In this document: piece by piece, positions 1,280-64,000 of the stretch
Layout: every line of letters begins with the position of its first letter
Numbering within the stretch: the first letter of the stretch is position 1
From: Effrenium voratum
Taxonomy: Eukaryota; Sar; Dinophyceae; Suessiales; Symbiodiniaceae
Reading direction: 5' to 3'
DNA length: 64,000 bases
NCBI GenBank assembly: GCA_963377175.1
Contig: CAUJNA010003299.1
Span: forward strand, 212,501-276,500
Notes under the pieces: model-generated
Database searches by the model: none
What the model was told of the DNA's origin: nothing
The model's input: the letters and a program-made list of their open reading frames with translations, nothing else
Program-made: the position numbers and the translations under genes

Positions 1280-1495
1280 CTAACTTGGCGTGGGGGTCCT
1301 CCTTCCATTTCCGGAGTTTTCAGGGTTTCCCGCAAGCCCCGGGGAGGAAACCGCCGAAGGGTGCGCTCGGCGCGCGGACTCCGCTTGGATCTGGCTGGGC
1401 TTCCCGCCGATGCGCAGCGCACCGAGGAAGGAAGTCCCGGAGCCCGAGCGTGCGGCACCCCGCGCCGGCGAAGTGAGGCCCAGGTGCAAAAAGTC
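1280..1495 (-). CDS. Repeat protein, probable last exon 24 with C-terminus
   Basis: It starts at GAC (D9) after the acceptor GGCGGAG: DFLH, LGLTSPARGAAR, SGSGTSFLGALR, IGGKPSQIQAES. A tail of about 31 residues follows, losing the repeat pattern, to a TAG at 1280-1282. The fading register and the lack of further repeat units to the left suggest this is the natural C-terminus. An internal donor (for example GT near 1428) leading to an unseen exon cannot be excluded. Confidence 0.55.
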   Translation of the reverse strand, partial: DFLHLGLTSPARGAARSGSGTSFLGALRIGGKPSQIQAESARRAHPSAVSSPGLAGNPENSGNGRRTPTPS

Positions 1496-1718
1496 CTCCG
1501 CCGACGTCGAATCGGAATCGATCGGAATCAAAATGTGTGCGTCCACCCGGAGGTTCAAGCCCCAAGACCCCAAGACGATCTTGCTGGATCAACCCCCATT
1601 CCAAATTTCATGGACCCCTCGCCAAGAAGACTAGCTTGCTGTCTGAATGCAACTGTCGTCTTCCCATTCAGATCAATAACAAGTTGTCTGTTGGACAACC
1701 TTACCTCACCTGACATCT

Positions 1719-1793
1719 ATCCCTGGATAAGCCCAGCATAAGCCCTTCAGGCCTTATTGAGGGGTTAATAAGGGATATAGCCCTTTTTCCCCA
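1719..1793 (+). repeat. Dispersed repeat family R1, plus copy
   Basis: ATCCCTGGATAAGCCC, ATAAGCCCTTCAGGCC and TTAATAAGGGATA match the complement of 12181-12262. Confidence 0.65.
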
Positions 1794-3053: not shown

Positions 3054-3102
3054 CAACGCAGGCATCAGCAGCTCTGGGCACGCGCAGGTTCTCGCCGATA
3101 GC
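3054..3102 (-). CDS. Repeat protein, micro-exon 23
   Basis: A 49-nt exon, the shortest: G completing Ser-4, LSARTCAC and PELLMPAL. The acceptor is TTTTGAG. The donor is GA (GACCGG), phase 0 at position 8. The next exon starts with D9, giving LMPAL then DFLH. GAC occurs at both junction sides, so the exact cut is ambiguous by up to three bases. Confidence 0.65.
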
Positions 3103-4136: not shown

Positions 4137-4192
4137 GAAGAGCCCAAATGCAAAAGGTCCAGCGCGAGCAACGGCGACTCAGAACGACTGGC
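4137..4192 (-). CDS. Repeat protein, micro-exon 22
   Basis: A 56-nt exon: ASR, SESPLLALDLLH, LGS and two bases of Ser-4. The acceptor is CGCCAG and the donor GC (TC then GCCGCT). Exon 23 continues with G and LSARTCAC, restoring the unit. A GT site 13 nt further on is an alternative donor but does not fit exon 23. Confidence 0.7.
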
Positions 4193-5553: not shown

Positions 5554-5634
5554 CTGCAAGGCCGAGAAGGAGAAGCCCAGCTGCACGAAATTCCGCAAGG
5601 AAGGAAAGGAGTCCATGTGCAAAAAGTCCAGCAC
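5554..5634 (-). CDS. Repeat protein, micro-exon 21
   Basis: An 81-nt exon: VLDFLH, MDSFPSLRNFVQ and LGFSFSALQ. The acceptor is CGAACTGAG. The donor is GC after TTGCAG, phase 0 at position 9. Exon 22 supplies A-S-R to finish the unit. Confidence 0.75.
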
Positions 5635-5961: not shown

Positions 5962-8900
5962 TGGCAGCGCCGGGTCCAATCTAACCATGCTGTGGGGCAA
6001 GAAGGGCGGGTCGAACTGCGCGTGCTCCGGCGCCAGCAGCGGCGCTCCGGCGCGGTGCACGCCACACAGCGCCGGCGGTGCATCTGGGCGACTGGAGCTG
6101 CGGGGGGGCGAGGAGGGCACAGGGCGCGTGTGGCTCGGCGCGGGCGAGGGAAGGCCCGGCCGCACCGAGCTGCGAATCAACGTGGAGAGCCCCGGTAGGG
6201 CTGCGTCCGGCAAGGGTAGCAAAAGGCCGGGGCGGGCACCACTGGGGGCAGGGAGCGCGAAACCCAAGCGAGCGAAGGAACGCACCAAGATAGACGGGTC
6301 TGAATGCAAAAGGTCCAGCACAGCTGGGGCAAAGCCCGATTGAGCACAGCTGCGTGACGAAGGCGGCACCTCCAGTTGTGAGTAGCTGATGACAGGAAGA
6401 GAGGACACGGAGCCAGCACAGGCCATGCCGAAGGGCAAAGCTGCAGAGCCGATGCAGGTGCAGCTTCTCGCCAGCAGCGGCAAGCCCAGATGCAGGAGGT
6501 CGAGTGTGGACAACACGGGCCCAGGCTGAGCAAGTGACCTGGCCGGCAAAAGGGGCCCCGTGTGCACCATGTCCAAGGCCAAAGCCTGCGAGTCAGGGCG
6601 AACGAAGGATCTGACGGGCAGCACTGGGTCCAGGTGTGTGGCCTCCAAGACGGACGGAGAGGAGATGAAGCCCAGGCGGCTTGCACCAAAGACTGACAGC
6701 CCCAAGCCCAGCCGAGCGAGGGACCGCGCGGACGGGAGGAAGCCAGGGCGCAGGAAATCCAGCGCCGGAACCGCCGAGCCGAAGCGGCCGATGGAGCGCG
6801 GAGGCAGCGGAAGGCCCAAAGTCACATCTTCCAGCACCGGCAGAAAGAAGACAAAGCCCATCCGGGCCATGCCTAACATCGGAGGCAACAAGCCCAAGCG
6901 AGCGAAGTTGTGTGCGGACGAGATGGGTCCCAAGCTCAAGAAGTCCAGCAGTGGCAACAACAAGCCGAGCCTGCTGGTGCTGCGAACCGGCAAGAAAGCG
7001 CCACAGGCAGCGAGGTCAAATGCTGAGAGCTGCGAGTCCGATCTGGCCAGGGTAAAGACCGAGGCAGCAAAGCCTGGCCTGGCTGGCTCCCTTGGTGACA
7101 AGGACAGGCCCAGAACGCTGAGGTCAAACGCTGGAACGGCCGGGCCCAAGTGCACGGTGCTGCGAGGAAGCGCTGCAAACCCCAGCCAGGCAGAGGCGGT
7201 AACCGACATGGAGGACACGAGGCCCACGCGGCCCAGCCCGGAGGGGGACAGCAAAGGCCCGACTTGGGCGTAGCCTCGGGGCAAAAGCGGACTGCCGGGT
7301 CCCAAATGATCCAGCGCCGACGTCGTGAAGCCGGGCCGCGCGGAGCTTCTCAGTGGCAAAGTGGGGCCCAGCATAGCGGCGTCCGGAACCAAAGGTGCCG
7401 GGCCCAGGCGCATGCCGCCGCAAGCAGGGGAGGATGGCTCGAGGCAGCTGAAGCTCCGCGGTAGCAAGGCCGGGCCGGGCTCACCAAGGTCCGAAGCAGC
7501 CGACGGAGGTCCCAGACGGCCCAGGCTGCGCGATGGCGAGGCTGGGCCGAGGTGCACGAAGTCAGCTGCCGGCAGAGAGGACACGAAGCCCAAACGGGAC
7601 AGGCCCAAGGGGAGCAGCAGCGGTCCCGGGCGCACGTGACTCCTCACAGGCAGCGACAGCTCCAGGCGAAGAAAGTCCAACACCGAGGCCGCGGAGATGA
7701 GGCGAGCAGAACTCCGCAAAAGCAGCGACAAGCCCGAATTCACCGTGCTGATGGCTGGTAGCGGGGAGAGGGAGCCAAATCTGCCCAAGCCCAACAACAA
7801 CATGTGGAAATCAGAGCGACTGAGGCTCCTGACAGGGATGGAAATGCCCAAGTGGAGGAGGTCAAGCGCAACTGTCGCGAGTTCAACGTGAGCAAAGGAC
7901 CGCAGCAATGAGGAAGACCCTAGCTGCACAAAGTCCGACACTGGAGTGATCAGCTCAGGCCACGCTTGCCCGAAGGCCGATATGGCAAAGCCTGTTTGAA
8001 GACTGCTCCTCGACGGCATGAAGCTGCCCATGTGCAAAAAGTCGGGCACCAACGTTGCGGGCTCCGAACAGCTAATAGCTCGCACGAACAACACGGGCCC
8101 CATGGTGGTGCAGTCGATGGCCGGCAGCGGGGACACGAAACCAGGACGGCCCAAGCCAGTCAAAAGTGCCGTCGCTCCTAGGTGGCAATGGTTTCGCGGG
8201 GAAGTGATCGGGTCCAAGCGCAGGTGGTCCAGGGCAAAAGGTGCAGAGTCAGTTTGGGAAATGCTGCGCAGGGGCGGAGCCGGGCCGAAACGTGTGAAAT
8301 CGGCCACCGGCAGAGGGGACACCAAACCCAAACGAGCCATACCAAGCAAAGGCGCTGCGGAGTCTGCGCGAGCATGTGCACGCGAAGACGAAGTAGAGCC
8401 CGATCTCAAGAGGTCTGGGATGGACGTTGCAGGGCCCATACGGGAACGGCTCCTGACTGGTGGTATGGATTCAAGTCGCAAATAGTCCGGGATAAACAAA
8501 GCAAGGCCGCAACGCGCAAAGCTGCGAGCCAACAAGAGGGAACCGAGGATCGCGGTGTCAGCAATGGGCAGAGGGAAGCAGAGTCCGAGGCGCATCAAGC
8601 CCAGAGCAAACATGAGAAGGCCAAAGCGCGCAAGATCTTGTGTGGACATAGAGGGCCCAAGGTGCGAGAGGTCCAGCAATGACATGAACAGGTCAGCTCG
8701 GGTAAGGGACCTTGGTGGCAAGGCTAGGCCAAGATTCACACGGTCCAACAAGAGCATCGGCGCTTCCAGCTTGGTGTGCGCTGGCGCCGGAAAGGGTGCA
8801 CCTGTGCGCGCCAGTGATCGAGCAGACAGCGAAGAGCCGAGACGTAGGAGGTCCAAGGTCAACGCCGAGGGGTCGAACCGACCAAAGGACCGTGCGAGCA

Positions 8901-11601
8901 GCGAGGGCCCCGAGTGGGCGCAGTCCGCCACCGGCAGCAAGGACACAAATCCGGAGCGGTTCAGGCCAAGTGCGGGTAGGAAAGGGCCAAGGCGACTGTG
9001 GCTGCGGAGCGGAGGCGTGGGGCCAGGATGAAGGAAGTCCAACACGGAAGATGCAAGGCCAAGACAAGCCATGGATCTCAGAGGCGGGGATGCGTTGATG
9101 CACGCCAGCTCCAGCACCGAGACGCACAAGTCCATGCAACCGAAACTATGAAGCAAAAGTGGAAGGCCGGGGAAAACAAAGTCCGAAATAGGCATCACAG
9201 GCCCAGGTTGTGCCAAGCTTCGGATCGAGGGAGAAGAGCCGGGTGATGCACACTCAATCGCTGGTGGCAAGGACACCAGGCCAGCACAGGCCATGCCAAA
9301 AATGGACAGGCCTGATCCCGTCCTAGCGCAACTCTGCGCCAACAAGGGCAAGCCCAAGTGCAGGAAGTCCAAGGCAAATACCGCAGGGCCCGGCTGAGAC
9401 ATGCTTCTTGCCAGCAGAAACGCTCCGGCACACATGGAGTCCAGCGAGGGGGGGGATGAGCCGAAGCACGCCACGCCCATGGCCAGAGGCGTCAACCCCC
9501 CGCAGGCAGGGCTGTGAGGCGGCATCAAAGCACCCGACGTTGTGGGATCTGGCGCTGGCAGCATGGAGCCAGGCCGTGCACGTGAGCGCAAAGGAGGCGG
9601 CGGGCCCGTGAGCGCGGAGTCCGGCGGAAGTGGCAAGGGCTCAGAGCGCGACAGGCCACAGGCGGGCGACGGCGTGTCCAAGCACGCGGGATCATGCAAA
9701 GGAATGAAAGAGCCCAGGTGGTTGTAGTCGGGAGCCAACACCGCCGGGCTTAGCCTGGCGAAGCTGCGGAGCGAAAGGGCTGAGCCAAGCACTGCAATCT
9801 CGATGACCGGCATCAAGGACACAAATCCGCAGCGGGACAAGCCCAGCAAGGGCGTCGGCAAGCCCGAGTGAGCGAGACCCCTTGGAAAAAGGCTCGAGTC
9901 GAAATGAATACGGTCCAACACTGAGGCGGCCAAGCTCGAACAAGCGCAGCTGCGCGATGGCAACAGAAAACCCATAAGCGCAAAGTCCAGCGAAGGCGAT
10001 GAAAGACCCAGCTTGCCATAGCCGGAGATCAGCGTCGAAGCATCCAAGCGGCCGAAACATCTGGGGAGCATCGCTAGTTCTGAGTGTGTGGAGTCCAAAG
10101 CGGGTGGGAAAGCCTCCACATTGCCCGTGCCCCACGCAGGCATCGCGGGCCCATAGCGTGCAGCGGTCCTGAGAGGTAGCGAAAAGTCAGGACCTGCACA
10201 TTCGGGCACAAAGGTCGGGGCGTCCAGGCGCAGGAGGCTCTTTGCTGAAGTCGCGAGCTCCATCATGGCGGAGTCCGGAAGTGGTGGGGGTGCTTCAGAG
10301 TGGGTGGGCCGCAAGGTTGAAGGTGCGGAACCAGCATGCCCAAGGGACTGCAGCAACAGGAAGGGGCCCAAATGCAGGAGGTCCAACACGGGCATCGCAA
10401 AGCCTGAGCATGACAAGCTGCGGGCTGAAAGTGAGAAACCCAGCTGGACAAAGTCCAAGGCTACCATGGGCGGCCCAGATCTGGCGGTGTTTGATACCGA
10501 CAACGGCGCATCCGGCCGGGACAAAGACCGCAGCAAGGGCGGCAACCCAATCTTCACGTGGTCCACCGCCGGCACGCAGAAGCCCATCCGCATAAGGCTG
10601 CGCACCAGGATGGATACGCCCAGGTGCAGGAAGTCCGAGACCAGCAGAGCCGAGTTCGAGCAAGAGACGCTGCGGGGCAGCAAAGAGGATCCCAAAGTAA
10701 TGAAATCCAACGGCAGCGTGGTGGAGCCCAGCCAGCACCTTCCGCACACTGACAAAGAGAAGTTAGTGTGACAAGAACTCCTGGCTGACAACAAGGGGCC
10801 CAAGCTCAGGAAGTCCGAAATAGGCATGGTGAATTCCAGACAACTATGTGACCGCACCGATGTCAAGAGGCCGAAGATCGCCCAGTCAGGCGCGAACGGC
10901 ATCGGGCCTATACGTACGCGTCCCAGAACTGAGAGGTTCTCGTTCGCCCAGGCGGTGGAGAAGTATAAATCGTTGGACGTTGAAGGCATGAGGTCCATGC
11001 GTGTGAAGCAGCGCATCGGCAAGGTCAATTCTGAGTGCAAGAAGTCCAGCACCAGCAGCGCGGGCCCAAAGCGTGCGCGGCTGCGTAGCGACGGCAAGGG
11101 GCCCGAGAACACCTTGTCCGGCGCAAGCGGCGACAGGTCCATCTGCAGCCTGCTGGTGGCTGGAAACAACAGCTCCAGGTGAGCAGAGCCTCGGGGAGGC
11201 AAAGGCGAGGCCATGTGCACGGAATCCAAAGTCAGCGGCAACACCCCAAGCCGTGCCGCTTTCAGAGCCGCCAGCATCAAACCAAAGCGGCTGAGGCCCT
11301 GAGGCAGCGCGGGCGCGCCCAGGTGCAAGAAGTCCAACACCGAGGCGGCAAACTCCATTCGCGCGAAGGATCGCAAGGGCGGCGAGGAGTCGGGGAGGGC
11401 AAAATCCGATGAAGGAAGGCTCAAGCCCATGCAGGTTCCGCCCAAGATCAGCGACAAGAGCCCTGGACGCGTGTGGCTGCGCGTGGGCATCAAGGGTCCA
11501 AGCTTCAGGAAGTCCAGAGTCAACAAAAACAGACCCAAACGAAAGTGAGACCGCGGCAACGGCAAGCTGCCCATGTGCAGAAGGTCAGGGGCAGACACCA
11601 C
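5962..11601 (-). CDS. Repeat protein, mega-exon 20
   Basis: This 5640-nt exon holds about 156 units, fully open. It starts at GTG after the acceptor GAACTGAG and ends LDPALP at a GC donor (CCA then GCTACT). Exon 21 completes the unit with VLDFLH. It shows the clearest A-B-A-C-B higher-order order. After class C units it often has a 14-residue unit of the form LGFVSSLPVADFxx. A competing GT site (GTGTGAGT) lies about 26 nt downstream, but using it would break the repeat register. The open frame runs on to a stop at 5932, which I take to be intronic. Confidence 0.85.
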
Positions 11602-12047: not shown

Positions 12048-12104
12048 CAAATCGGAGCGAGCCGTACTGCGGAGGGGCAGGAAGCTGTCCAAGTGCACAA
12101 GGTC
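12048..12104 (-). CDS. Repeat protein, micro-exon 19
   Basis: A 57-nt exon: DLVH, LDSFLPLRSTAR and SDL. The acceptor is GGACTGAG before GAC. The donor is GC after ..GATTTG. Joining to exon 20 gives SDL then VVSAPDLLH, a full 12-residue unit. Both ends are phase 0. Confidence 0.75.
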
Positions 12105-15184: not shown

Positions 15185-15245
15185 CAGGAAGGGTGGAGGA
15201 GCTCCGGCCCGCGCCGAGCCCGGCGCCGAGGCCGCGGAGCCCGGC
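15185..15245 (-). CDS. Repeat protein, micro-exon 18
   Basis: A 61-nt exon: G completing Arg-12, PGSAASAPGSAR and AGAPPPFL. The acceptor is GCCCCAG. It ends at position 8 at a GC donor (CTG then GCGCGG). Exon 19 begins with D at position 9, giving PPPFL then DLVH. Confidence 0.72.
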
Positions 15246-16794: not shown

Positions 16795-16927
16795 CTGGCG
16801 AGGCCTTGCGGCGGCGGCGCGGCGCCCGGCTGCAGAAAGTCCGGCGCCGGCACAGCCGGGCCCACGCGAGCGGGGCTGCGGGGGGAGGTGGACGGCCCCG
16901 ACTTCACAAAGTCCGCCGCAGCTGGGC
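16795..16927 (-). CDS. Repeat protein, micro-exon 17
   Basis: This 133-nt exon begins GC (completing Ser-4), then PAAADFVK, SGPSTSPRSPAR, VGPAVPAPDFLQ, PGAAPPPQGLA and AG of Arg-12. The acceptor is CCCCGAG and the donor GC. Exon 18 continues G (AGG) and PGSAASAPGSAR. It is very GC-rich. Confidence 0.78.
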
Positions 16928-17446: not shown

Positions 17447-17508
17447 TTGGCTCAGGCCGCTGAATGCCCACCAAGGAGGACGCAAAACCCGGCCCGGAGA
17501 GGCTTCGC
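17447..17508 (-). CDS. Repeat protein, micro-exon 16
   Basis: A 62-nt exon: G completing Ala-7, RSLSG, PGFASSLVGIQR, PEP and one base of Ser-4. The acceptor is TTTCTCAG and the donor GT (GTGCCT). Exon 17 supplies GC to make AGC. This is the most diverged of the micro-exons but fits both neighbours. Confidence 0.65.
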
Positions 17509-17996: not shown

Positions 17997-18058
17997 GCCA
18001 AAAGCGTCGGGCCATAGCGAGACATGCCGTAGGCTGAGGAGAGAGAGCCCGAACGGAC
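17997..18058 (-). CDS. Repeat protein, micro-exon 15
   Basis: A 62-nt exon: V-R, the class C unit SGSLSSAYGMSR, YGPTLL and two bases of Ala-7. The acceptor is AAATCAG and the donor GC. The join to exon 16 gives YGPTLLA then RSLSG, exactly in register. Confidence 0.72.
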
Positions 18059-45300: not shown

Positions 45301-47997
45301 TGAGCCCAAATTGCAGGAACCTTGCGCCAGCAGCACAACTTCTAAATGCACAAAGTCGGGCACCGACAAACAGCTGCCCAAGCGCGTTGCGCCAAACGCT
45401 GGGAGTGTGGAGCCCATGCAACTGAACTGCCTCGGCAACAGCAGGCTTCCCAAATGCAAAGGGTCCAGGGCCGGCAGTGCCACATCCAGCCAGACAAAAC
45501 TACGCACAAACAGCAGAAATCCGAGGTGGAGGAGGTCAAGGGCCGACAGCAGGAGGCCCGTGCGCACGTTCCGCAGCACAAGGAGCGTAAAGCCCGAGCA
45601 AGCGGGTTGCCGAGGCGGTAATGAGGCCCCCGGGCGTACGGGGTTGGGTGCCGGCAGGGATGAGCCTGCATGAGAGGAGCTGCGAAGGGGCAGCGCGGGG
45701 CCCAAGGTGGCCACATCCAGAACCGACAAAAAGCTGCCGGGGCTGAGCCGGGCGAGGGCAAACGCTGCCGGCCCAAGCTGAAGACAGCTGCGCAGGGAGG
45801 CTGGGGAGCCGGTCCGGGCAAAGTCCGGCGCCGGCGAGTTTAACCCGAGGCGCAGGAAGGACCGCGACAAGGACGCTGGGCCCAGGTGCGCACGGTCTGC
45901 CGCTGGTGGAGACGGGCCAAAGTTGGCCCAGGCGGAGACCAAGGGGGTCGAGCCAGGGTGGGTGAAGGAGCGAAGAGGAGGCGGAAGCCCGAGTCGAATA
46001 TAGTTCAGTGCTGGCAGCATGGGGCCCAAACAACTGTAACTTCTGATTGATGCAACTGGCCCTAGGAATGAGCTTTCAATTACTGACAGGGGGAAGACTG
46101 AGCCAAAGCGGTTCAAGCCAAGCGCTGGAAGCATGAAGCCAAGCTGACACATGCTGCGAGGTGATGGCGGAGGGCCCGGGTTTTCACAGTCCAGCACTGA
46201 CGAGGTCGCGCCCAAGCAGCAGGAGCTTTGCGAGGACGGCAACGGCTCCATCTCCGCCATATCCAAAGGCGAAGGCGACAGACCTGGGCGACAGCGGCCC
46301 ACCACCAAGGACCTAAAGCCAAAGTGGATGAGGCTCCGCAGAGACACCAAGAAGCCCAAGCGCAGAAAGTCCAGCACCGACGCTGCAGATCCGGCCCTGC
46401 AAGCGCTGCGCACAGGCGACAAGGGGCCAAGATGCAAAGGGTCCAAGGCCGGCGGCGCCAGGCCCAGGCGAGCGCAGCTCCTCACGGGCGAAGCCGAAGC
46501 CGGGCGCGTGTTGCACAAAGCCGAGAGCGGCAAACCCGGCAGGGCGGAGCTGCGGATGGGCAGCACAGGACCCAGGGTCGTGGCGTCGGTGGCCGATGGC
46601 GAGAACACCAAGCCCAGCCAAGAGAGGCCGAAAACCGGCGATGTGGCGCCAGGCCGGCAGAAACTCCTCAAAAACGTGGAGAGCTCTGGAAGGCTCATGT
46701 CCAACACCAAGAGGCAAGGTCCAGGTTGCGCGACTGATCGCGGCGGCAACAACGAGCCCAAGTTCACACAGCTCAGAGGTGGCAGAAAAGGGCCCAGTCG
46801 CAGCGCGCCCATGGTCAAGAGCCGGAAGCCCACCTGCACGAAGGAGCGCAAAGGCGCAAAGGGCCCAGGGCGCAAGGAGTCTGAGGCCAAAACGGCCGGC
46901 CCCAGCTGCACGCAGCTTCGCGGTGGCATCGGCAAGCCGGGGCGGACGTGCTCCAGCGCCGAAGCCGCAAGTCCCGGCCGCGCGGCGCTCCGCAAAGACG
47001 AGGAAGGCCCTGGACGCGTGTGATCCGGGGCAAGCAGGTTTGGGCCCAGGCGATTGGTGCCGATCAAAAGGAACGCAAAGCCCGGACGGGTGAGGGAGCG
47101 CAAGAAAAGGGGCGAAGCTGGATGCACGGCGTCCGGTGCCAGCGACAAGGGGCCGAAACGAGATCTGCTGGTCAAGGGCGGAATCAAATCCAGGCAAAGG
47201 ATTGGTTGAAGTGGCAAGGAAAAGCCCGGATGCAAAGAGTCCAGGACAGACAGGTTGGATTCAAAGCGCATGAAGGACCGCAGCAAAGGAGACAAGCCCA
47301 ACACCACATGGTCAGGCACGGGCAAAAACAAGCCCAGGCGCAGCCTGCCACACGGCAACACGGCTGGACCTGATCGCCCCAATTGTTGTGTCAGCAGTGT
47401 GAAGCCCAGCTGCAACATGTCGAAGGTGGGCATCGCGCTGCCCAGTCTGAAGTGGGACCTGAGAGGCGGCAAGGGACCCAAGTGCAGGGAGTCCGGTGCC
47501 AAAAGCGCTGCATCCGGCCTTGTAAGGCTCCTTGCCGGCAAGGACAGGTCCGGGTGCAAGAAGTCGGGGGCTGGCAGTGGGGGGCCAACCATTGCGTGGC
47601 CCATGCACGACAAACCAGAGCCGAAGCGGGAGAAGGATCTGGGCGGCAAGCTGAATCCCAGGTACAAAAGGTCCAACACCAGCGGCAGGCTGCCAAGGCG
47701 CAGGCATCCATAGGCGGAGGGCGTCAGCTCCAGCCGCACGTGGCTGCGCAAGGACGAGAAGGCGCCCAAAGACACGAGGTCCAGAGCTGGCGAGGAGGAG
47801 TCCAAACACGTCACGCCATAGGCTGAAGCCATCAGGTCCGAGCACACAGACGACCGCAGAGACGAAGCGCTGTCCGGATGCGCGAGGTCCGAGGCAGACA
47901 AAGTGGAGCCGATGCTGCACCGGTCGAATGAGGACGAGCGGAAGCCCAAGCGCCCGGAGCTTTGGAGCAACGAAAATGAGTCGAGCACGAGGTGGTC
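42347..47997 (-). CDS. Repeat protein, mega-exon 3
   Basis: This 5651-nt exon holds about 157 repeat units and has no internal stop. It starts at GAC (D9) after the acceptor CCAAG and ends two bases into position 12 (GGA-AG) before a GC donor. The next exon's first G completes AGG (Arg). Classes A, B and C alternate throughout. Several 14-residue units follow class C units, for example LGLVFSPSATDATT. The open frame continues upstream to 48168 into the intron, but that stretch has no repeat character. I therefore place the start at the splice acceptor and not at an ATG. Confidence 0.85.
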
Positions 47998-49451: not shown

Positions 49452-49553
49452 CAAGATCAGCGGAGAGCTGCCCGGCAAGGTCACGCCGTAGGCCGGAAGA
49501 GAGGACCCCAGCTGAGAGGAGCTGTGTGAGGACGTGAAGGAACCCATGTGCAC
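49452..49553 (-). CDS. Repeat protein, micro-exon 2
   Basis: A 102-nt exon encodes 34 residues in register: V-H, then MGSFTSSHSSSQ, LGSSLPAYGVTL and PGSSPLIL. The acceptor is GCCAG before GTG. The donor is GC after ..ATCTTG. It starts at repeat position 11, which the preceding exon's position 10 demands. It ends at position 8, which the next exon completes with D9 (PLIL then DHLV). Both ends are phase 0. Confidence 0.75.
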
Positions 49554-51518: not shown

Positions 51519-54500
51519 AAAGTCCAGCACCAGCAGCAGGCTCGCGGGCTTCGTCATGCCGTACACCAGGAGCGAGGGGCCCAGGCGAGTGGAGCTGCGC
51601 GACAGCACGGAGGCGCCGCAGTGGGCAAGGTCCAGCAGCGGCGGCAGCGCTTCGAGGCGCGTGGTGGCGGGCATGGAAGGCGAGGCGCCCGGACGCGAGA
51701 TGGAGCGAGGGGACAAGGAGGAGCCCGGACGCACGTAATTCGGCGCCGGAAGGGAAAAAGCCAGACGTGCGAAGGAGCGGATTGAAGTGGAAAAGCCAAA
51801 AGTGACATAGTCCAAGGCTGGCGAGAAAGGGCCCATACGGACGTTGGAACAGACTAAGAGGCTTGGGCCCAGACGGAAGTTGGCTCTCGCAAATGGTGGC
51901 AAGCCCAGGTGCAGGTGGTCCAGCATGGAAAGCTGCGAGCCAAATCTGGCCGACTTGTAGATGAAGACAGAAACATCCGGCTGCAGCACGCTTCTGATGG
52001 ATAGGGGTGGGTCAAGTCTTGCAGGCTCTGCCACTAAAGGCATTGAGCCGAACCTACAGGAGCTACGCAAAGGCAGAGATGCATCAAGCTCCACCATGTC
52101 CAGTGCTGACAGCACCAGGTCCATCCGGCTCATCTTTACCGCGAAGAGCGGCGGGCCTGTCCGGGCGGATTGTCTCAAAGGCGCCGATGCTTCCAGCGCT
52201 GCGTAGCTCAAGGGCGCAGACGAGGCCTCCGTCCGGCAAAAGCTTCTCGAGGACACCGAAGCTTCTGGCACGCCGAGGTCCGTGGCGGAGGGCGACGCGC
52301 CCGGCCGCCCAGGAGACCGCGGAGAGGGCGCGGGGCCCAAGCTGAGGGAGTCCGAGACTGGCGGCGAGGTGCCGAAGCGGGTCACGCTCCAAGCCGGCGA
52401 CGTCGAGCCCATGCGCGCCAAGCTCCTTGGCGACAGCAACAGCTCCAGGTACAGGAAGTCCAAGGCGGGCGTGGGCAAGTCCAAGTGCAAAGACCCAAAG
52501 ATGGCCACTGCCAGCCCCAGGCGCGTGTGGCTTCGCAAAAGCGTGAAGCTGTCCAAGCGCAAAAGGTCCAGTGCCGAGGCCGACAGCCCCAAGCGGGCAC
52601 TGCCGAAGGGAGGTACAGGTGGCCCTGAATGCGCAAACTCCCGGGGGAGCGGCGAAACCTCTGTGTGTGCCGTGTCCAAAGCGAGCGACGCCGGGTCCAG
52701 TCGTGCAAAGCTCCGGGGCAACAAGGTGAGCCCGAGTTGGGCGACATCAAGAGCTGATGACAAGGAGGCCAGGTGGGTTAATCCCCAAGTAGACGTAAAA
52801 GGGCTCAAGCAAATGAGGGACCGCAAAAGCAAAGAAGCGCCAATCTCCAACAAACCAAGTACCAACAAGGGCAACTCCATTCGCAGGTAGCCCGTTGCTG
52901 ATAAGGTTGGGCTTGCGCGAATGGGCTGCTGCAAAGGCAGCAGTGGGCCACTGTGCATGGAGTCAGGTGCTGGCAGGGATAGACCTGAGCAACCTCTGCC
53001 CGCAATCGACGTGGCTGGACCAATGGGCGCAGATTGGCGTGCGGACGGCAGGGACTCTGGGTATAGAAGGTCCAGCACAAATGTGAACAAGTCCATGCGT
53101 GTGAGGCCGAAGGCGGGCATCGGGCTGCTACTACACAAGAGCTGCCGCAAGGGTGGCGTGAAACCCAACTTCACCGCGTCCGAGACCGACATAGGCAGCC
53201 CAGGGCGAACGAAGCTGCGCACCAACATGCCGCTGGCCAAGTACAAAAGGTCCAGCGCCGCCGGCAAGGAGCCAAAGCTGGCCCTGTTGTACGCCGGGGT
53301 GGACGGCCCGCAGCGCGCAAGCTGCCTGGGAGAAGGCGCGACGCCCAAGCGCAAGAAGTCCGAGGCGGGCGGCGCCGGGCCCGGCCGCGCCGTGCCCCTG
53401 ACTGAGGCCGAGGCGCCCGAGAAGGTGTGGTCAAACGCAAGCGAAGAAAAACCCAGGTGACCGACACCAATCGCCGGCGAGGTGAAGGCCAAGCAAACGA
53501 ACTGCCGCAAGAACGGCGAAACGCCGAAGCTGGCGGTCTCCAACACCGGCGAGGGCGGGTCTAGGTGGCAGGCACCGACGGCCAAAGTGGTGGAGGCCAT
53601 GCGCATGAACTGCTGCAGGGGCAACACAACTCCCGGCTCAGTGGCATCCGGCGCAGGCGAAGGTGGGCCAAAGCTTGTTTTGCGGAAGACTGAAAATGTC
53701 AGACCCAAGCGCACAAGCTGCTGCAGTGGAAGGCAGGGTTCAGAGTGCGCCAGGTCCGACACAGATATTGAAACTCCCAAGCGCTGGGTGCCAGACAAAG
53801 GCAAGATCAAACCAAAGCGAATGAGTTGGCGTGAGGAAAGTGAGACCTCCGGCTGAGCAGTGTCTGAAGCGAATAGCATCGAGCCCGACTGCAGGCAGCC
53901 TAAGAGTGGCGGCATGAACCCCGAACGCGTCATCTGCCGCAGTGGCGAGGAAAGGCCAAAGGAGGAGAGATCCGGCGGAAGCATCAAGGCCTCAACACGG
54001 CAGGAGCTCTGCGCTGGCACGGGCGGCTCAAGGTGCAAGGCTTCCAAAACAGACAGCGCCAAGTCGACTCGAACTCTGCCAGTCGCAAACAGCGTGGGTC
54101 CCGGCCACGCGAGCTGCCTGATTGGCAGCACCAAGCCAAGGTTGGTCAAGTCCGGGACAAGCGCCGCCAAGCCCGGGCGAGTAATGGAGCGAAGCAAGAG
54201 CGAAGATGCCAAGTGCACGAGGTCACACACCAACAGCGGCGAATCCAAGCGCGCGCTGCCCAGGAGGGAAATGGAGGCGCCCAGTTGAGCCATCGACCTG
54301 GCGAAAGGCGAAAGCCCCATCTGCGCGGAGTCCAAAACTGGCACCAAGAGGCCCAAACACGCGGGACTCTGCGGCGGCAGCGAAAATGCCAAGTGAAGAA
54401 GGTCCAATGCTAACGGGGAAGGTCCCATGACGGCCCTGCTGGTGGCAAACGTCAAAGTGCCCGAGCGAGCCACGCACCGCAACAGCAACAAGGAGCCCAA

Positions 54501-57500
54501 GCGCAAAAAGTCCGTCGCCAGAAGCGCGGAGCCTGAACAGGTGGAGCCTTGCAATGACGAAAAAGGCCCCAAGCACGTGTGGTCCGACAGCGGCAGAGCA
54601 AACCCAAAGCGCAAAGCCCCGCAAACTGCCGGAGCTGGGCCTAGCCTCAGCACGGCCCTGGTTGGCAAGTTCAAGCCCAAGCGTGCATGGTCCGGCGAAG
54701 GCAAGGTCGCCTCAAGCCAAGAGGTGCTGCGCACTGGTGAAGGTGGCCCGGGATAAGCGTGGCTTAAGGCCGACAGTAGGGAGCCCAAATGGCATCTGCT
54801 GAATGAAGAGAATGAGCTCTCCAGTTGCGCGCAGGCCCTCAAAGGTGTAAAAGGGCCTGATACGGCGCGGTCCGGCACCGGAAGGTCCGGGTCTGGGCAA
54901 GCAAAACTCCGTGAAAGCGGCGACAGGTCCGGGGGCACAAAGTCCAGGGCCGGCAGCGAGCTGCCGAGGCAGGCGCGGGACATGGCCGAAAAGCTGGCGC
55001 CCAAAGTGCAGCGTCCGCGCGGCGAAGGCGTGGAGCCCGACTGCGCGAAGTCCGAAGACGGGGACGGCGCCTCTAGGCGTGAGTGGCTCCGCGTCAAGAT
55101 GGGGGCCTCTGGATGCAAAAGGTCCGACACCGGCAGCGAGAGCTCCAAGCGCACGCGGTCGCTGGCGGGAGACGAGGTGTCCAAACGCGTCATGGACCTG
55201 GTGGATGAGGTGGAGCCCAGACACAAGTGGTCCAGAGTGAGCACGGTGAAGCCGCAGCGCAAGCAGCTAAACACCGGAAACAAAAAGCCAGCACAGGCGG
55301 TGTCTCTCAAAGGCAGGAACGAGGCAAAGTTTGCGGAGCCTGGGGCAAGTGAGGTCGGGCCCGTGCGGAGGAGGCCTTCTGGCAATGGAGCGGGACCTAA
55401 ACAGGCGGGCGACCTCAGCGGCAAAAAGGGGCCAAGGTGCAAGAAGTCAAGCACAGAGACTCCCGGCCCGGAGCGACACAAGCGATAAATCGGCAGCGGC
55501 AGCCCTATACGCTGCACTCCTCGCAACAGCAAAGAAGGTCCCAGCTTGGCCATGCCGAAGGCAGAAGCCGCCGAATCTGAGTGAGCGGGTTGCCGAGTTG
55601 GAGGCAACGAGCCAAAGCTTGTGAGGTCAGTCGAAGGCATGGACAAGTCCATACTGGTCAAGCCAAAGGCGGAGAATGTGGACATGAGCCGCGCGAGCTG
55701 TCGCAAGGAAGGCATAAAGCCTAGCTGCAAAAAGTCCAGAGCAGACATGTGGAAGCCGAAGCAAATCGTTCCAAACACAGGCAGGCGACTGCTGACTCTG
55801 GTAAAGCTTTGTGGAAGCAAGGAGCTTCCTAGACACAAGGGGTCCAGAGCCAACGAAAAACTGCCAGAACAGCTCATGCCACTTGCCAAAAGTGCCGGCT
55901 CAGGGCGAGCCACACTCCTCGCAAGCAGCGGGAGTTCGAGCTGCAAAGAGTCCAGAGTTGGCACCGGCGCCCCCAAGCGTGCAAAGCTGCGGATCAGAAC
56001 CGCTGGGCCCAGGCACGCCGTGTCCGGCGCCGGCGGCAGCGCGCCCGACTGCACCGAGGAGAAGGCCGAAGACGGCAGCCCCAAGCGCGCGAGGCTCGTC
56101 GCGGAGGGGTGGGAGCCCAGACGGGCCGCGGCAAAGGCAGAGGAGGTGGGGCCGGAACATGCGCAGCTTTGGGGTGACGTGGGCAACCCGAGATCAGCGA
56201 AATCCATGATCAGTGGGGGCGAGCCAGGCCTCGCAAAAGCGGAAGCCAAAAATGCAGATCCCAGCCGCGCGAAAGATCGCAGGAACAAGGTGAGGCCAAT
56301 GCCTGCCAGGCCAGAGACTGACACCGAAGCTTCTACTTGTGCCCGGGACCTCACAGACAGCAACAGCTCCAAGAGTGCAACATCCAAGACTGGCAGCATA
56401 GGCCCCAGGTGCGCGCGGGAAAAGGCGAGCATCGGCGACCCGGAACGGCTGACGCCCTGCAGCGACAACACGACGCCAGGCTGAGAGCAGTCCGTGGCAA
56501 ACAACGTGGGTCCGGGCCTTGCGTGGCTGGACACCGAGAGTGTAAAGCCCAAACACGCCATGGACCGCAACAGCGGCGACAGGCCCAGGCGGCTCACATC
56601 CATAGCTGGCGGAGTGAGGCCCGAACGTCCAGCGCTGAATGGCGAAACAGCTGGCCCCACGCGAGCCCAACTGCGCAAAGGCGAAGCGAAGCCGAAGCTC
56701 GCCACATCCGGCGCCGAGGTCGAGGCATCCAAGCGGCTGTGGCTGGAAGTAAAGGAGGCTGGGCCCGGGCGGGTGAAGGCGTGAGGCGACAAAGCCAAAC
56801 CCATCCTCAGGAGGTCAAGCGCCAGCATCAAAGAGCCAAAGTTAGTCAGAGCGGAGGCCGGAAGGATGGACCCCAAACAAGCGCAGCTGCGGGCGGGCGA
56901 AGGGGCGCCCAGCTCCGCAATATGAGACGCTGGCAACCTCAAGTCCATGCGGCAGCCGCCCAACGTGAGCGTGGTGAGGTCAAGGCGTGAGGAGCTGTGT
57001 GCCGACAGGGGGGCTCCTGGCAGAAGGTAGTCCGGCATAAGCAGGGGGGAGCCGGACCGGCTAAAGCCAATGGTGAGCAAAGGAGAGCCCGTGCGGGTGC
57101 GGGAGCGCATCGGCAGCGTACTTCCGGGGAATGCGGCATCCAGGGCTAACAAACAACTTCCCACCTGCATCTTCCCAAAAATCGCAAAGCTCAGCCCAAA
57201 CCAGGCAAAGTTTTGCAGCGGCAGCAAAAGACCCAGACTCAAGTAGTCAAAGATTGGCATGGACGAGCCCGCCCTTCCCAGGCTGAACACCAAAGGAGCC
57301 GATCCAACACGAGAGGTGCTCTTGAGCAGCGGTCCGGAGCCAGTGGTGGCAAAATCCATGGCTAACACAACGGGTCCCAACCTGGCTGCCTTCAAGAGCA
57401 AGGTTGGGCTGCCCAGTTGACTGGGGGCCCTCACCGAAAGCACTGCCCCCAAATCTGTGACATCAGAGGCGGACAGCCGTGGGCCCAACCGCCCGCAGCC

Positions 57501-60500
57501 GGGCGTTGACGCGGAGGAGCCCAGCCAAGCGGAGGAACGCAGAGGCACGGCGCTGCCCAGCATGGAGCGCTGCAGCACAGGTAGCGCCAGACCCAGGCGA
57601 GTGCCGCCGAAGGTGGACGAGGTGAGGTCAAATCGCGCGTGGCCCCGGGCCGACATCACGGCGCCCGGGTGCAAAGAGTCAAGGGCCGACAAGGAAGGTT
57701 CAAAAGCGGCCGTGCCAAAGGCCAGCATGGTGGGGCCCAGGCGGGCATGGTCTTGAGGTGGCATGGAAGGGCCAGGTTCTGTGGAGTCCATGGCTGGCAT
57801 CATCAGGCCACCGCGCCCCAAGCCGAATGCCAAAGAGGCGGAGCCGGGCTTGGCGACGAGGCGAAGCGGCAAGGTGGGGTCCATAAAAGCGAGGTCCATC
57901 ACGAGAGCGCTCGAGCCCGACCTGGTCATGCCAAAAGCCGGCAGCAAAGCTCCACAGCACGCGGAGTCCCGCAAAAGCATCGAAGGCGCGGGGCTGCAGC
58001 AGTCAGAAATGGACGGCTCAAAGCCCAAGCGCGCCGTGCCCGACACAGGCGGCCTGAAGCCCGCAATGCCTAAGGACTGCAGAGACGAAAAAGAACCAAA
58101 CTGGGCAAAGGCCGAGACCGGAGGCAAAGAGCCCAAGTGCGTGGCCCCAAAAATCGGCGACCGGAAACCCGGGCGTGAGCCACCCCGCGCCGGCATGGAG
58201 AAACCCGAGCGCAGAGGGTCCAAAGGGGGCGCCGGCGGGTCAAAGCGTGAGGTGCCGGAAGGCGACGAGGTTAGGCCTGAGCAAGTCGCGCTGCGGATCA
58301 GCGTGGAGGAGCCCAGATCGCTGAGGTCCGGCAGGGGCATGAACACACCCAACTCAGAGATCTTGAAGGCTGGAAAGGTGAGCTCTGGACAAGCAAAGCT
58401 TCGGGGAGACGGCGCTGCGCCCAGGTCGAATCCGTCCAAGGTGAACGATGAGAGCCCCAGCACAAGCTTTCCAAAGATCGGGGAAGCGCTGCCCAGGGTT
58501 GCACGGCCTTGGAGAGGCATCAGGGGCCCTAAGTGCAGGAGGTCCGAAACCAACGTGGGCAGGCCTAAGCGCATCGACTGGAAGGTGGGCGAGCCGAAGC
58601 CCAAGCGAGCACTGCAGCGCGCCAGCAAAGTGGAGCCCGGGTACGCGACGTCAAAGGCCAAAAGTGCAGAGCCGGAGTGCGACGCGGCTCTGGGCAGCAT
58701 CAAAGAGCCCAAGCTGACCCAGTCCATTGGCAACAGCAGAAAACCCAAGCAAGTCCTGGAAGAGGCGGGCGGCGGAGGCCCTGTTTGAGACCTGCTCCTC
58801 AGCAACGCTGACGGCGCCAAGTGGAAAAGGTCAAAGGCCAACAGCGGCACATCCAACCGCACGAAGTTGTGGGTCGGTGGCGAGAATCCGAGGTGCACGA
58901 AATCTGAGACTGGAAGAGCTGAGTCAAACCGCGCCGTCCCAAAGACTGGCACCTGGGAGCCGGGATTCGCAATGTCTTGGGGCAGCAGCATAGGGCCCGA
59001 GTTGCTGAAGTCGGAGAGCAGAACTGGGAGGCCCGGCCTGACCACGCCCCAAGCCAACATCAACAACTCGAGTCGCATGCTTGGCCTCAATGGCAACAAA
59101 GCGCCCGGGTATGCAGAGTCCGGGAGTGGCATGGTCGGGCCTGAGCGGCAGGGGCTGCGCAACGGAGGAGCCGAGCCCATGAAGCCATGGTCCGGCAAGA
59201 ATGTGGGGGGCCCCATGCGACTTATGCTGGAAGGTGGTGAGACGAAGCCCAACCTGGCCATGCTGTGCAGCAGCAGCGAGGGCGCAAGCTCAACATAGTC
59301 CAAGAGCGGCAGCAAGGAGCTCGTGCGCATCAGGGTATGCACGGAGGACTTGGAGCCGCAGCGGGCAGTTGATCGCGCCAACGTGGAAGACCCGGACCAC
59401 GCGAGATCCGCCACGAGAAGGGGCAAGCCGAGGCGGAAGGGGCTGTGAGCAGAGGCGGGCAAGCCCAGATGCACGAAATCCGAGACCGGCGTCAAGGGAG
59501 CGAAGCGTGTGGCGCCCACGGCTGAGGAGCTGGCGCCCACTTGCGCGGAGTTCCGCAGAAAGGGCGTGGGGTCTGGGTGCAAATAGTCCAGCGCCAATGC
59601 CCAGCTGCCCAGGCGACCGACGCTTCGAGGAGAAGTGGAGCTGCCCAACATGAGGAAGTCCATCACCAACAGCGACACCTCTGAGGTCGAACGGCCAGAG
59701 GCGGAGAAGGACAAGCCCGTGCACCCAACGGCCCGCAGCGGCAAGGAGGCATCGAAGTGGGCAGAGTTCGGCGCAAACATGGGCGAGCCTGGTGCTACAC
59801 GGCTGGAGGTTGTGGAGGTCGGATCAAGTCGGGCAGTAGCCTGTAGAGGCATCGAAAACCCCATGTAAGCACAGTCTGGCGCAAGAAGCATCAACTCCGA
59901 GCGCGAAAGGCCAAAGGCGAACATCTTCAGTCCGAGTCGCGCAGCAGACCTCACTGGCAAGAAGCTTCCGGGCCGCAAATAGTCCAGGGCAAGAGCCAAC
60001 GAGCCCATTTGCACCGGGCTCCGCGTCGGCAACAGGCTGTCCAGCTGCACAAAGTCAGAGGCCAACGTGCTTGGCTCCAGTTGCACAAGTCCGAAGGTTG
60101 GCGCTGCACTGCCGGGCCGCGCAGGGCTTTGCAGGGACAATACCGGCTCAAACCTGGAAAGCGCCTGCACCAGCATGGCGAATCCGAGGCTCAAGAAGTC
60201 CAGAGCTGGCATGAGGGCGCCGGGGCAACAGAAACTCCTTGCCAGCATCAGGGGGCCAGAATGTGCAAGGTCCATGGTCAACAGGGCGGCCTCCAATCTG
60301 GCAAAGCTGCGAGGCGAGGGCGGAAGGCCCAACTCCACCATGTCCGGCACCGGCAGCGAAGCTCCCAAGCGCGCCAGCGGCATGGCCGAAAGCGGCGCTC
60401 CCATGCGCGCGCAGCTGTGAAGCGGCAGCGCCAGCCCCAGGCGCAGGAGGTCCGTGGCAGGCAAAAGCGGACCCAAGCGGGCAGAGTGGGAGGTGGACAA

Positions 60501-63500
60501 GGCAGCGTCTAGACGAGAGCAGGAGCGCAAAAGCGAGGAGAAGCCCAAACCTGCCACGTCAGAGGTCAAGGGCGAGGGGCCCAAGCGCGTGTAGGAGAAG
60601 GCTGGAGACTTAGGGCCAATGCAGGCGGCACTCTTGGGAGGTGAGGCTGACCCGAGCTGCAGAAGGTCCAGCACCAAAATCAGGGCACCAAGCTGGGCGG
60701 AGCTGCGAGTAAGAAGAAGCAAGCCTGACTTCACCAGGTCCAGGACGAACAAAGTCGGCTCTGGCCAGCCCAACCCGAACACCAAGAGCGCCAGTTCCGC
60801 ATGTCCAGAGCTCCTCAAAGGCAAGGTGCTACCGGGCTGCAGCAGGTCAAAGGCCGACATCAGGGCGCCCAAGCGCACGCAGCTGCGCGTCGAAAGCAAG
60901 GACCCCGGCACGGCCATGTCCAGCGCTGGCGAGGTCAAGCCCAGGCGTGCCAGGCCGAAGCCGCTGAACGCGGACCCCGAGCGGCAGAACTGCCGTGCAG
61001 AGGGTACGAGACCCATATGCGAAGAGTCCAAGGCGGGCAAAGAAGGCCCCAGGCGGCAGCGCGCGTACACCGAAAAAGCCAATCCCACATGACCCAGGCT
61101 GTGAGGAAGAAGCGGCAAGCCCGGGTGAAGGGAGTCTGAGATCAAAAGGGAGGAGCCGAGGCATGTGGCACCAGAGGTCAAGAGCGAGGAGTCGGCGCGA
61201 GCCATGCCTTGCAACGGAGATGCACTGCCGAATGAGATGCGTTCAGGCGTGGGCGTGGTGGGCTCCGTACGCACCAGCCCGAAGCTCGAAAAGGATGCCC
61301 CAAGGTGGGCATGGTTCCGGAGTAACATGGCCAAACCCAGGAGGAAGAAGTCGAACACGGGCGTTGTGAGGTCAAAACGGCTGCAGCTGTAGACCGGCAA
61401 AACGCTGCCAAATCAAGAAAAGCTTTGCGACGACATAAAGGTGCCCAGCAGATCACAGTCGAACAGAGGCGGCAGACTGCCAGACCTGGTCCTGTCAAAG
61501 ATCGGAAAGGACGGCTCCGCGCGGGCCGTGCTCCGCGAGGAGGGCGGAAGCCCTGGCTTCACAAAGTCAGACGCCAAAGGCGGAGCGTCCAGGCGAGCTC
61601 TGTTGAAGATCAGCGCTGCGGCACCCGCGCGGGCCAAGGAGCGAGCCAACAAGACCAGGCCGAATTGGACGGAGTCCGAAACCGACAAGCACAAACCGGA
61701 ACGGGCCAGGTCCAGTACAAAGCACGTTGAGTCAAGGTGGCCTGGGCTTCTTAGTGCCAACATGGGTTCAAAGGGTGTGAGGTCCAATGTCAGCACTAGA
61801 GTTCCCATCCAACACACGCCCAAGAACAAGAATGTGAAGCCCATGCGTGAGAGGCATCGCAAAAGCAGCGAGCTTGCCGTGTTCTCATGGTCCAGAATGG
61901 ATGCTGACACCCCTGCCCGACACATGCCCAGCATGGGAAGGGTGGAGTCCGGTCTCACAAGGCTGTGTACAAACGGGGGCGGGCCGAGGCGACTCACATC
62001 CAGCACCAGCGGCAGAAAGCCAAACCTTCCCTGCCCGCAGGGCGACGACATGGGCGCCGCGCGCACCAAGCTTCGAATCGGCATCGCCGAGCCCATGGAG
62101 GTATGGTGCAGCGCCGAAGCTGCTAAACCCAGCTGTGCTGAAGCCCGGGGCGACGTCGAAGATCCGATACTCACCGTGTCCAGCGAGAAAGGCGAAGGGC
62201 CCATACGCACAAGGCCCATGGCCGGCACAGAAAGCTCTAGGCGCCCGAAGCTTTGTGCTGGCGCGAAGAGGCCCAGGTGTGTCCAATCCGAGGCTGAAGT
62301 GCGCAGCTCAGGACGCGACATGCCGGAGGCCAACGCCATGGACCCGAGGCTGGCGAAGCTATGGGTAGATGGGGTACTGCCCAAATGCAGAAAGTCCGGA
62401 ACAGGAAGCAGCAAACCAAAACGTCCCAGGCCCCAGGCAAACACAGTGGAGCCGGCCCTGGCAACGCCTCGAATCAACAAGCAGCTGCCCAAATGAAGGA
62501 GGTCGGGAACCGGTGAAAATGCACCGAATCGGTTCACGCCAAAGCCTGAGAAGGTGGAGTCTGAGCATTGGAGGCTATGCAGCAGCATGGGCAAGTCTGG
62601 GAATACGGGGTCCAAGGCAAGGGGCGTCAATTCCGACCGAGTCACGCCATAAGCTGACAACAGTGAGCCGGTTCGAACAAGGGACCTGGCCAACAGTGAG
62701 ATTCCAATGAGAGCTGCATCGAACAAAGGCGGAAGGAAGCCAATCCTGGACGCACCAGAGGGAGAAGCCGCCGGCTCGAAGCAAGCTAAGGATCTCAGGG
62801 GCAAGGAAAATCCGGGACGATCGGCGTCAAATATCAACAGAGAGGGTCCCAAGCGGCCGAGGCCGCACAACAGGAAGGCGGATCCAGCACGAGCAAGGGA
62901 CCTTGGGGGTGGTGTAAGTCCAGAGCCGGAGAAATCCAACGCCAGCATCAACAGGCCCAGGCGAACGTTGCCCAAGAAGGATGCCGAAGACTCTGAGCAC
63001 TGACAGCTCCTAATGGGCGCCGCTGGGCCAAAGTGCGTCATGTCAGGCACCGGCAGAAAAAAGTTTGAACGTGCCAAGCCGCAAACCGGCAACCGGGGCT
63101 CCGTACGGCCAAAGTCCCTGGGGGACGAGGTGGGGCCGAATTGGCTCAAGTCGATGACAGGGGCCGAAAATCCGATGCTGGCCATTCGCATGGACGAAGC
63201 TGAGGCGCCAAGGCGTGCGAGGCTGTGAAGTGGCGCCAAAGATCCGCAGTGCGCGGTGTCCAAGGCGGCCATGGGAGCGCCAAACCTGGAGAGTCCAAAG
63301 GCGGGCGGAGTCGACTCTGCGCGGCTCGGGGACCGCAGAGACGCGGAAAAGCCGAAGCTGGCAGTGCCCCACATGGACGCGGACAAGCCAAAGCGGTTAC
63401 ACCCGGAGGCTGGCAGTCTGGGGCCCAACTGTGCATCGGCCCGCGACAAAGGCGAGGCACCCGTGTGCAAGAAGTCCGCAACAGGCGGAGACGAGCTCAT

Positions 63501-64000
63501 CCTGCCGATGCCGTGGAGTGAGACCTGCGGGCCCATGCGCATCCAGCTCCTTACCAGCAGGCCGGAGCCCAGGTGCAGAAAGTCAAAGGCGGGCGTGAAT
63601 GGCCCAGACCAGCCCATGCCAAAGATCAGGGAAGCGGGACCTGGGCAGCCGAAATTGCGGAGTGGCAGCAAGCTGCCTATGCCGACGCTGTCAAAGAGTG
63701 ACGGCATGAACTCAGAGCAGGTCAAGCCGACGATGGGCGGGGCTGGGCCCGTGCAACCGAGCTGCCTTGTGGACAGGGGCGATCCCAAGAGCACACGGTC
63801 GGAGAAAAGCATGCTGGAGCCAAACCGGGCCAAGCCCACCAAGGGCACCGCTGGCTCAGGGCGCGCGAGCGTCCGCGAAAACGGCGGAGGTTCAGGTCCG
63901 ACAAAGTCCAGCGCCGGCAGCAAGGCGCCCAAACGCGTCATTCCAAAGGCGGGCAGTGGACTGCCCAAGCACATGAGGCCTTGCGGCAACAAGGCAAGGT
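51519..64000 (-). CDS. Giant 12-residue-repeat protein, mega-exon 1 (5' end beyond window)
   Basis: This is the largest coding block, about 346 tandem 12-residue units with no other domain. Units follow L-G-x-x-L-P, then R-S-F-A-R (class A), L-D-F-L-H (class B) or F-G-x-S-R (class C). The frame is open to the window edge, so the true start and any signal peptide are outside. It is closed only by a TGA at 61413-61415, after which the same frame and register continue. The 3' boundary is the donor GTAAGC at 51518-51513; the exon ends at position 10 of a B unit (..LVLDF). The next exon supplies V-H, positions 11-12. The protein is rich in Leu, Ser, Pro, Gly, Ala and Arg, and poor in Lys and Trp. 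Coding status is supported by the stop-free frame and by synonymous drift between units. Function is unknown; a solenoid-like scaffold is only a guess. Confidence 0.85.
61413..61415 (-). other. In-frame TGA inside mega-exon 1
   Basis: A TGA replaces position 12 of a class A unit (residues before it read SSQSFS, residues after it FGSVLPVYSCSR). The frame is unchanged on both sides and the 12-residue register is kept. Arg CGA to TGA is the simplest single change. It could be a pseudogene lesion, an allelic nonsense variant, a sequencing error, an edited site or readthrough. Confidence 0.85.

Follow-up and report, generated by a model that had tools for sequence, protein, structure and literature searches.

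Stop codons confined to one repeat position in a probable giant spliced gene of the dinoflagellate Effrenium voratum

Titin and other giant proteins combine a tandem-repeat design with giant scale. Internal stop codons that behave like sense codons are described for readthrough genes of flies and mosquitoes and of fungal and animal enzymes, and for the reassigned codes of ciliates and Amoebophrya. The locus reported here, a 64-kb window of the genome of the dinoflagellate Effrenium voratum (assembly GCA_963377175.1, contig CAUJNA010003299.1, abbreviated C3117; the window is C3117:212501-276500), has internal stops of a similarly sense-like kind. The window very probably carries one spliced gene, running across it on the minus strand, whose product would be a tandem repeat of 12 residues, and the in-frame stops of its arrays fall on a single position of one kind of repeat unit. 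All exon, stop and junction coordinates below are positions of the window on the minus strand, and the assembly searched held 1,155,904,702 bases in 3,699 contigs.

The longest minus-strand frames in the open reading frame (ORF) listing were 3,315, 1,971, 1,891, 1,344 and at least 861 codons long, and in three pairs of long frames the members adjoined in one frame, separated by a single stop. The translated long frames are a tandem 12-residue repeat, with autocorrelation peaks at 12, 24, 36, 48 and 60 residues. The ORF listing and a 12-residue profile trained on two arrays recovered the five long minus-strand arrays that an initial annotation of this DNA had pointed out, and each keeps a single frame from end to end. 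The 18 scattered fragments of the same repeat claimed there were likewise recovered in number by a blind, ungapped, splicing-unaware scan of the non-array DNA at a cut-off score of ≥18.8: all 18 lay on the minus strand, the plus strand gave none (best score, 16.1), and ten shuffled versions of the non-array DNA yielded three matches at this cut-off in sum.

Unit length is constrained: of the 901 units in the five arrays, 882 are 12 residues long, 18 are 14 residues long and a single one has 5. Three main kinds of unit were recognized, G (xGxxxxAYGMTR), D (LGxxLPALDxxH) and R (LGxxLPLRSxAR), by a definition of our own in which R units have R, Q, H or K at position 8 and often S at position 9, D units have D or E at position 9, and G units have G at position 9 and often an aromatic residue at position 8. 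Positions are hereafter given with the unit, so that R12 is position 12 of an R unit. Neighbours of the same kind are scarce (2.1% of adjacent units vs 30% expected), and the order of units in a block is mostly GDR or GDRDR, that is, DR pairs with G between them. In 351 GDRG blocks, position 8 of the G unit is mostly TAT, TAC, TTT, TTC or TGG, an aromatic signature, and position 9 of the D unit is GAC or GAT in 347. These codons point to selection at the amino-acid level, which in turn speaks for genuine translation of the strand in this frame.

AG|G acceptors are habitual in dinoflagellates. Each of 22 consecutive pairs of repeat blocks could be joined at 36 offsets of frame and register, and we asked, blind to the answer, which one the available splice sites serve best. 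With a GT/GC donor and an AG|G acceptor, the true offset ranked first in 8 pairs and among the top three in 16 (mean rank, 2.95), a result that none of 1,000,000 simulations equalled, in agreement with the initial claim that the fragments fit together beyond chance. Twenty control dinucleotide rules, ten with false donors and ten with false acceptors, gave p values from 0.075 to 0.997; AG|G sites are few, which leaves many offsets equal in having no pair available and lowers the mean ranks of the donor controls too; the p values treat such ties. The test failed at three of the 22 pairs. In two, the chosen block end overshot the donor or did not reach the end of the array. The third, the only failure with a biological cause, hid an overlooked exon at 30564-30533, the only stop of which is again at R12. 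Repeating the test on 21 window junctions with block ends from a register hidden Markov model (HMM) gave p = 2.6e-5 for GN-AG and 0/1,000,000 for the two AG|G rules, whereas the lowest p among eight control rules was 0.016. The 30 junctions outside the window serve as an independent replicate, with p ≤ 1e-6 for the three true rules and a lowest control p of 0.032 among eight.

A splice-aware Viterbi search, in which an acceptor AG needed no following G, resolved the window into 24 exons. The final model likewise comprises 24 exons, which are separated by 23 introns of 327-3,080 nt and total 11,423 codons. The initial annotation had proposed at least about 11,450 codons, corrected here to 11,423, and 21 junctions restoring both codon phase and repeat position, a restoration borne out by the blind test although the count is corrected to 23 introns; the five junctions it named (LVLDF+VHMG, PLIL+DHLV, FGR+SGLAMP, DTVQ+LGFPP and ALQ+ASRSES) are all in the final model. 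Acceptors are AG|G at 22 of the 23 introns, donors are GC at 17, GT at 4 and GA at 2, and no register slip occurs within 12 codons of any junction. Because the coordinates were picked from the earlier searches, this last agreement is partly by construction, and it is the blind tests that count as evidence. When the chain is extended beyond the window, G follows AG at 44 of 56 acceptors vs 1,399 of 4,285 intronic AGs. The frequent GC and GA donors joined to AG|G acceptors are those of a dinoflagellate-type spliced nuclear gene; in Symbiodiniaceae, 25-74% of introns are GC/GA-AG according to a 2024 review (PMC11453091).

In the order of the minus strand, exon 1 (51519..63998) is a 12,480-nt array, open at its 5' side, where it runs on to 66618 beyond the window. 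Exon 2 (49452..49553) begins at LVLDF+VHMG and ends at PLIL+DHLV, and is followed by the array of exon 3 (42347..47997), exons 4 (40998..41084) and 5 (40113..40241), the array of exon 6 (33460..38752) and exon 7 (32239..32332). Exon 8 (30533..30564), of 32 nt and reading RSFA*PGLAAL with the stop as an asterisk, is the one overlooked while stops were penalised. Exons 9 (29449..29561), 10 (28508..28570), 11 (27109..27165) and 12 (24961..25069) precede the array of exon 13 (20331..23992), after which come exons 14 (19535..19658), 15 (17997..18058), 16 (17447..17508, the lowest blind score at 18.8), 17 (16795..16927), 18 (15185..15245) and 19 (12048..12104). The array of exon 20 (5962..11601) leads by way of exons 21 (5554..5634, joined at ALQ+ASRSES), 22 (4137..4192) and 23 (3054..3102) to exon 24 (1423..1495), the last in the window, beyond which the chain goes on downstream. 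Exons 2, 4, 5, 9, 12-21 and 23 come from the register test and exons 3, 6, 10 and 11 from the Viterbi search; exon 22 takes its start from the former and its end from the latter, and exon 24 comes from the extended Viterbi search. A 17-nt exon called by Viterbi at 31120-31104 was rejected; it lies within a 77-bp tandem repeat (31098-31242) and lacks AG|G, and it scored 19.5 vs 18.3 for the chosen exon 8, whose score includes a 12-bit stop penalty.

Some features of exons and introns were seen beside this. The 14-residue units (LGFVSSLPVxDx...) number 4, 2 and 12 in exons 3, 13 and 20, with none in exons 1 and 6, and in the printed string of units they seem to come after G units, replacing a D unit. 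Exon 20 holds a non-repeat insertion at 10936-10977 (minus strand), around NDLYFSTAWANENLSVLGRVRIGP. Exons 11 and 12 are separated by an intron that contains a fragment of eukaryotic large-subunit rRNA (25378-25580, minus strand; model positions 2623-2802; 113 bits). An element of about 120 bp at 5414-5530, in the intron 3' of exon 21, recurs in the assembly in at least 40 further copies of 71-89% identity and is possibly a short interspersed element (SINE) or an introner. Simple repeats rich in CA and CG occupy 3796-4058 between exons 22 and 23, and others of CTAT and TG type are found near 12.9-14.1 and 18.9-19.2 kb of the window.

The gene extends past the window, as had been claimed, and is larger than the figure given initially. 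A Viterbi chain extended into the neighbouring sequence has 57 exons and 20,827 codons over 134 kb, from 13.5 kb upstream of the window to 57 kb downstream. Downstream fragments persist to about 74 kb past the window, and upstream small exons extend to 77,533. The search of adjacent sequence for the N-terminal exons yielded upstream exons but no gene start. In about 75 kb upstream of 77,533, about 25 kb of which reads N, no fragment scored above 20; arrays restart at C3117:364.6 kb, with repeat matches out to 569,207, on the minus strand for all matches listed, and two further fragments out to C3117:571,821. These upstream arrays may or may not be part of the same gene, since dinoflagellate genes form clusters on one strand (PMC11453091); with them included, the gene would perhaps exceed 40,000 codons, a rough estimate from match spans. 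Additional repeat loci lie on contigs C3628 and C3189. The former (C3628:212553-252779, minus strand) is a second array locus, with an unbroken 12-residue register and 11 stops, all in register 12, in the 20 kb examined; the latter (C3189:617225-622678, minus strand) has matches every 936 bp, or 26 units of 36 bp, a spacing that suggests recent tandem amplification.

The chain as initially observed holds, and four in-frame stops within it had gone unmentioned: TGA at 61413..61415 in exon 1, 37384..37386 in exon 6 and 30551..30553 in exon 8, and TAG at 21899..21901 in exon 13. Each is at R12 in the final model. The extended chain has 9 stops in 20,827 codons, where 366 would be expected from the base composition of the codon positions, and the TGA of exon 8 is additional to these, so that one continuous protein of titin-like scale, as initially pictured, would need stop codons to be passed. 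A census of stops covered 37,295 array codons of C3117 and C3628, in stretches of at least 200 codons (at least 100 in the four last loci) with small exons excluded. It gave 33 stops (29 TGA, 2 TAA and 2 TAG), and 33/33 were at R12; register 12 accounts for only 12.3% of the codons from which a single change would make a stop. Old duplications make the units non-independent and simple probabilities therefore overstate the locking, though the sequence contexts of the stops are diverse.

For a neutral expectation, the changes CGA to TGA and CAR to TAR were taken to be as free as the matching changes to TGG, TGC or TGT and to TAC or TAT. On this basis 33 stops were seen at R12 vs 35.8 expected, 0 at G12 vs 11.7 and 0 at D12 vs 7.3. 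The ratio of stops to TGG/TGC/TGT was neutral at R12 (29/63 vs 212/485, p = 0.81), whereas stops were excluded at G12 (0/36 vs 140/366, p = 1.8e-5). Position 8 of R units has 115 CGA and 0 TGA; the lack of TGG and TGC there is circular, as the R type is set by residue 8, but the lack of stops is not, as these were counted by register also. With R12 at the neutral expectation and G12 and D12 empty, stops are evidently neutral at R12, whereas selection eliminates them at other positions. R12 is itself under constraint. R, C, Q, H and W are common there and serine, glycine, leucine and proline rare, and AGY serine is depleted relative to AGR arginine (7/388 vs 71/160, p = 1.6e-26), which indicates that amino-acid selection operates at the stop-bearing position itself. 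Units 3' of stops match the profile as other units do (29.8, n = 29 vs 28.0, n = 680), suggesting that the sequence past the stops is still translated.

These patterns suggest that the cell tolerates or reads through stops at R12. If a continuous polypeptide is made from the chain, its stops must be passed because they lie inside it, and translation probably does pass them. How this would happen is more tentative, and for a leaky mechanism with two outcomes we put the chances somewhat below even. Near-cognate insertions are Trp, Cys or Arg for UGA and Gln or Tyr for UAA and UAG. Under leaky termination in this mRNA, part of the ribosomes would insert such a residue and continue while part would stop, and a stop would be harmless only where both outcomes are harmless, namely at R12: readthrough would be tolerated there, Arg, Cys, Gln and Trp being common at the position, and so would termination, as only at R12 would the released chain close on a complete block. 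At other positions one outcome would be harmful and selection would remove the stops. The output would be a series of nested proteins, each terminating at the end of a block, together with longer readthrough forms. The whole statement, that this is a giant spliced gene with leaky stops, which are tolerated solely where the chain end completes a repeat block, we regard as evenly balanced. That the gene has well over 20,000 codons, with dozens of stops neutral at one position and forbidden elsewhere, and yields a nested ladder of giant proteins falls a little short of an even call.

Several observations weigh against this proposal. Some small exons of the 57-exon chain (e.g., those of 14, 17 and 22 nt) are probably spurious, and neither the 5' start nor the 3' end of the gene was found in the sequence examined. 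No readthrough signal was detected, either as a stem-loop after the stops or, by eye, as a nucleotide motif around them, and RNA after stops is, if anything, less structured than that after other R units (mean, −18.4 vs −20.1 kcal/mol, p = 0.03). Up to six TGAs occur within 1,570 codons, so long products would require very efficient readthrough. In addition, R units followed by D have 0 TGA to 13 CGA vs 27 to 46 for R units followed by G (p = 0.007), although exon 8, outside the 0-to-13 count, contributes one TGA of the R-then-D type.

The chief rival to leaky termination is context-specific decoding or editing, in which a dedicated system specific to R units would read the stops as sense or edit the mRNA (e.g., to Arg or Trp), with no termination at all. 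The neutral ratio at R12 and the exclusion at G12 suit such a system, as does the presence at R12 of all three stop codons, TAA and TAG included (selenoproteins use UGA only, with a SECIS element); nevertheless, a context motif and an RNA structure around the stops were looked for and neither was found, and we consider this reading unlikely. Uniform decoding of the stops as Arg, Cys, Trp or Gln was rejected on the counts at position 8, G12 and D12, because the residue inserted by a fixed decoding would be acceptable there too.

It is decidedly improbable that the stops are real ends, that is, that overlapping or alternatively processed transcripts (e.g., by internal trans-splicing of a spliced leader) make shorter proteins ending on a whole block. 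Such ends would agree with the relatives in protein databases. Among 12 related models, nine end inside a repeat, all nine exactly at position 11, one residue before position 12, and three end in other sequence; these ends are those of protein records only, the ends of P0009 and P0011 were judged by eye from the last unit, as a short unit disturbs the automatic register, and the last unit of P0007, with N at position 8, is of ambiguous type. The unidirectional clustering of dinoflagellate genes (PMC11453091) would also agree. But no intergenic space follows the stops, the next codon resumes the repeat in frame and register, the units directly after stops show no decay, and the splice junctions link the arrays to the fragments in register. 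True termination by itself is a poor fit, as the downstream sequence is kept and serine seems to be worse than a stop at R12, which avoids the former yet accepts the latter. Reinitiation at the ATG of the following G unit was considered and is not favoured, as no enrichment of ATG after stops was apparent by eye.

A decaying or silent array, either a pseudogene or coding-like satellite DNA, would explain why in-frame stops are present, and most of them are explicable by C-to-T changes at CGA codons. It is very unlikely given that every one of the 33 stops is at a single position, that the five arrays each stay in one frame throughout, and that constraint acts at the amino-acid level in the G8 and D9 codons and in the serine depletion at R12.

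As a control, HSP70 in the same assembly was only partly clean: two full-length copies (599 positions) are free of in-frame stops, and 22 of 83 matches have one or more. Nine of these 22 start at residue 100-104, where the stop-free copies start at 106-107; from the alignment coordinates alone, the stops in those nine may lie in intron at an exon edge. A species-wide code in which TGA, TAA and TAG are sense everywhere, as reported for Amoebophrya sp. ex Karlodinium (PMC6394959, PMC11453091) and as the stop-bearing HSP70 matches might invite, is the least probable reading, since sense use regardless of position is contradicted by the empty G12, D12 and R-unit position 8 and by the stop-free HSP70 copies.

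The product of the extended chain, as computed, would be about 2.15 MDa and hydrophobic, with a grand average of hydropathy (GRAVY) of 0.37, rich in L, S, P, A and G and with 0.4% lysine. Two AlphaFold jobs, both of low confidence, gave no secondary structure in one case (mean predicted local distance difference test (pLDDT), 51.1) and approximately one strand per 12 residues in the other (41.5). The fold considered was a beta-solenoid, with a regular strand in each coil, for which models of this quality carry too little weight. The role is probably that of a structural or scaffold repeat protein, a guess held with low confidence. No Pfam family matched any of the three array translations scanned at E ≤ 1, and a PDB sequence search with the relative P0003 gave no match at E ≤ 1. 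Six pattern matches on viral contigs gave 0 confirmed.

The 12 relatives, of 660-1,708 residues and without function, include P0005 of Symbiodinium necroappetens, P0010 of Symbiodinium sp. KB8 and P0004 from an ENA contig, and those with an organism name are all Symbiodinium, i.e., dinoflagellates. No longer relative was found at E ≤ 0.001 among 2,550 candidates scored with the 3,315-residue array, and public databases show relatives of this gene merely as short unnamed pieces. No report of position-locked stops or of this gene was found among titles and abstract openings, bioRxiv and most subscription journals being outside the search. If the proposal is correct, the gene is among the largest protein-coding genes of any single-celled organism. 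Its position-locked stops would also be a natural experiment on termination, readthrough and protein structure, as a codon that is neutral at one position of the repeat is purged from the equivalent positions of neighbouring units, over thousands of units.

Among known systems, the repeat proteins of Symbiodinium are the closest. They are built of the 12-residue repeat seen here. Exon 20 is collinear with P0004 (32% identity) and with P0005 (30%), both of which carry an altered counterpart of the non-repeat insertion in that exon, but the database models are short pieces and none displays the gene-scale structure of the window chain. The likeness to titin is one of scale and tandem repeats and at most one of working; the window gene differs in having no Ig, FnIII or other Pfam domain in the three translations scanned, in its units of 12 residues and in its in-frame stops. 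From the readthrough and reassignment systems it differs in that dozens of stops sit at one repeat position and are excluded from the equivalent ones, with neither a stem-loop nor a motif found around them.

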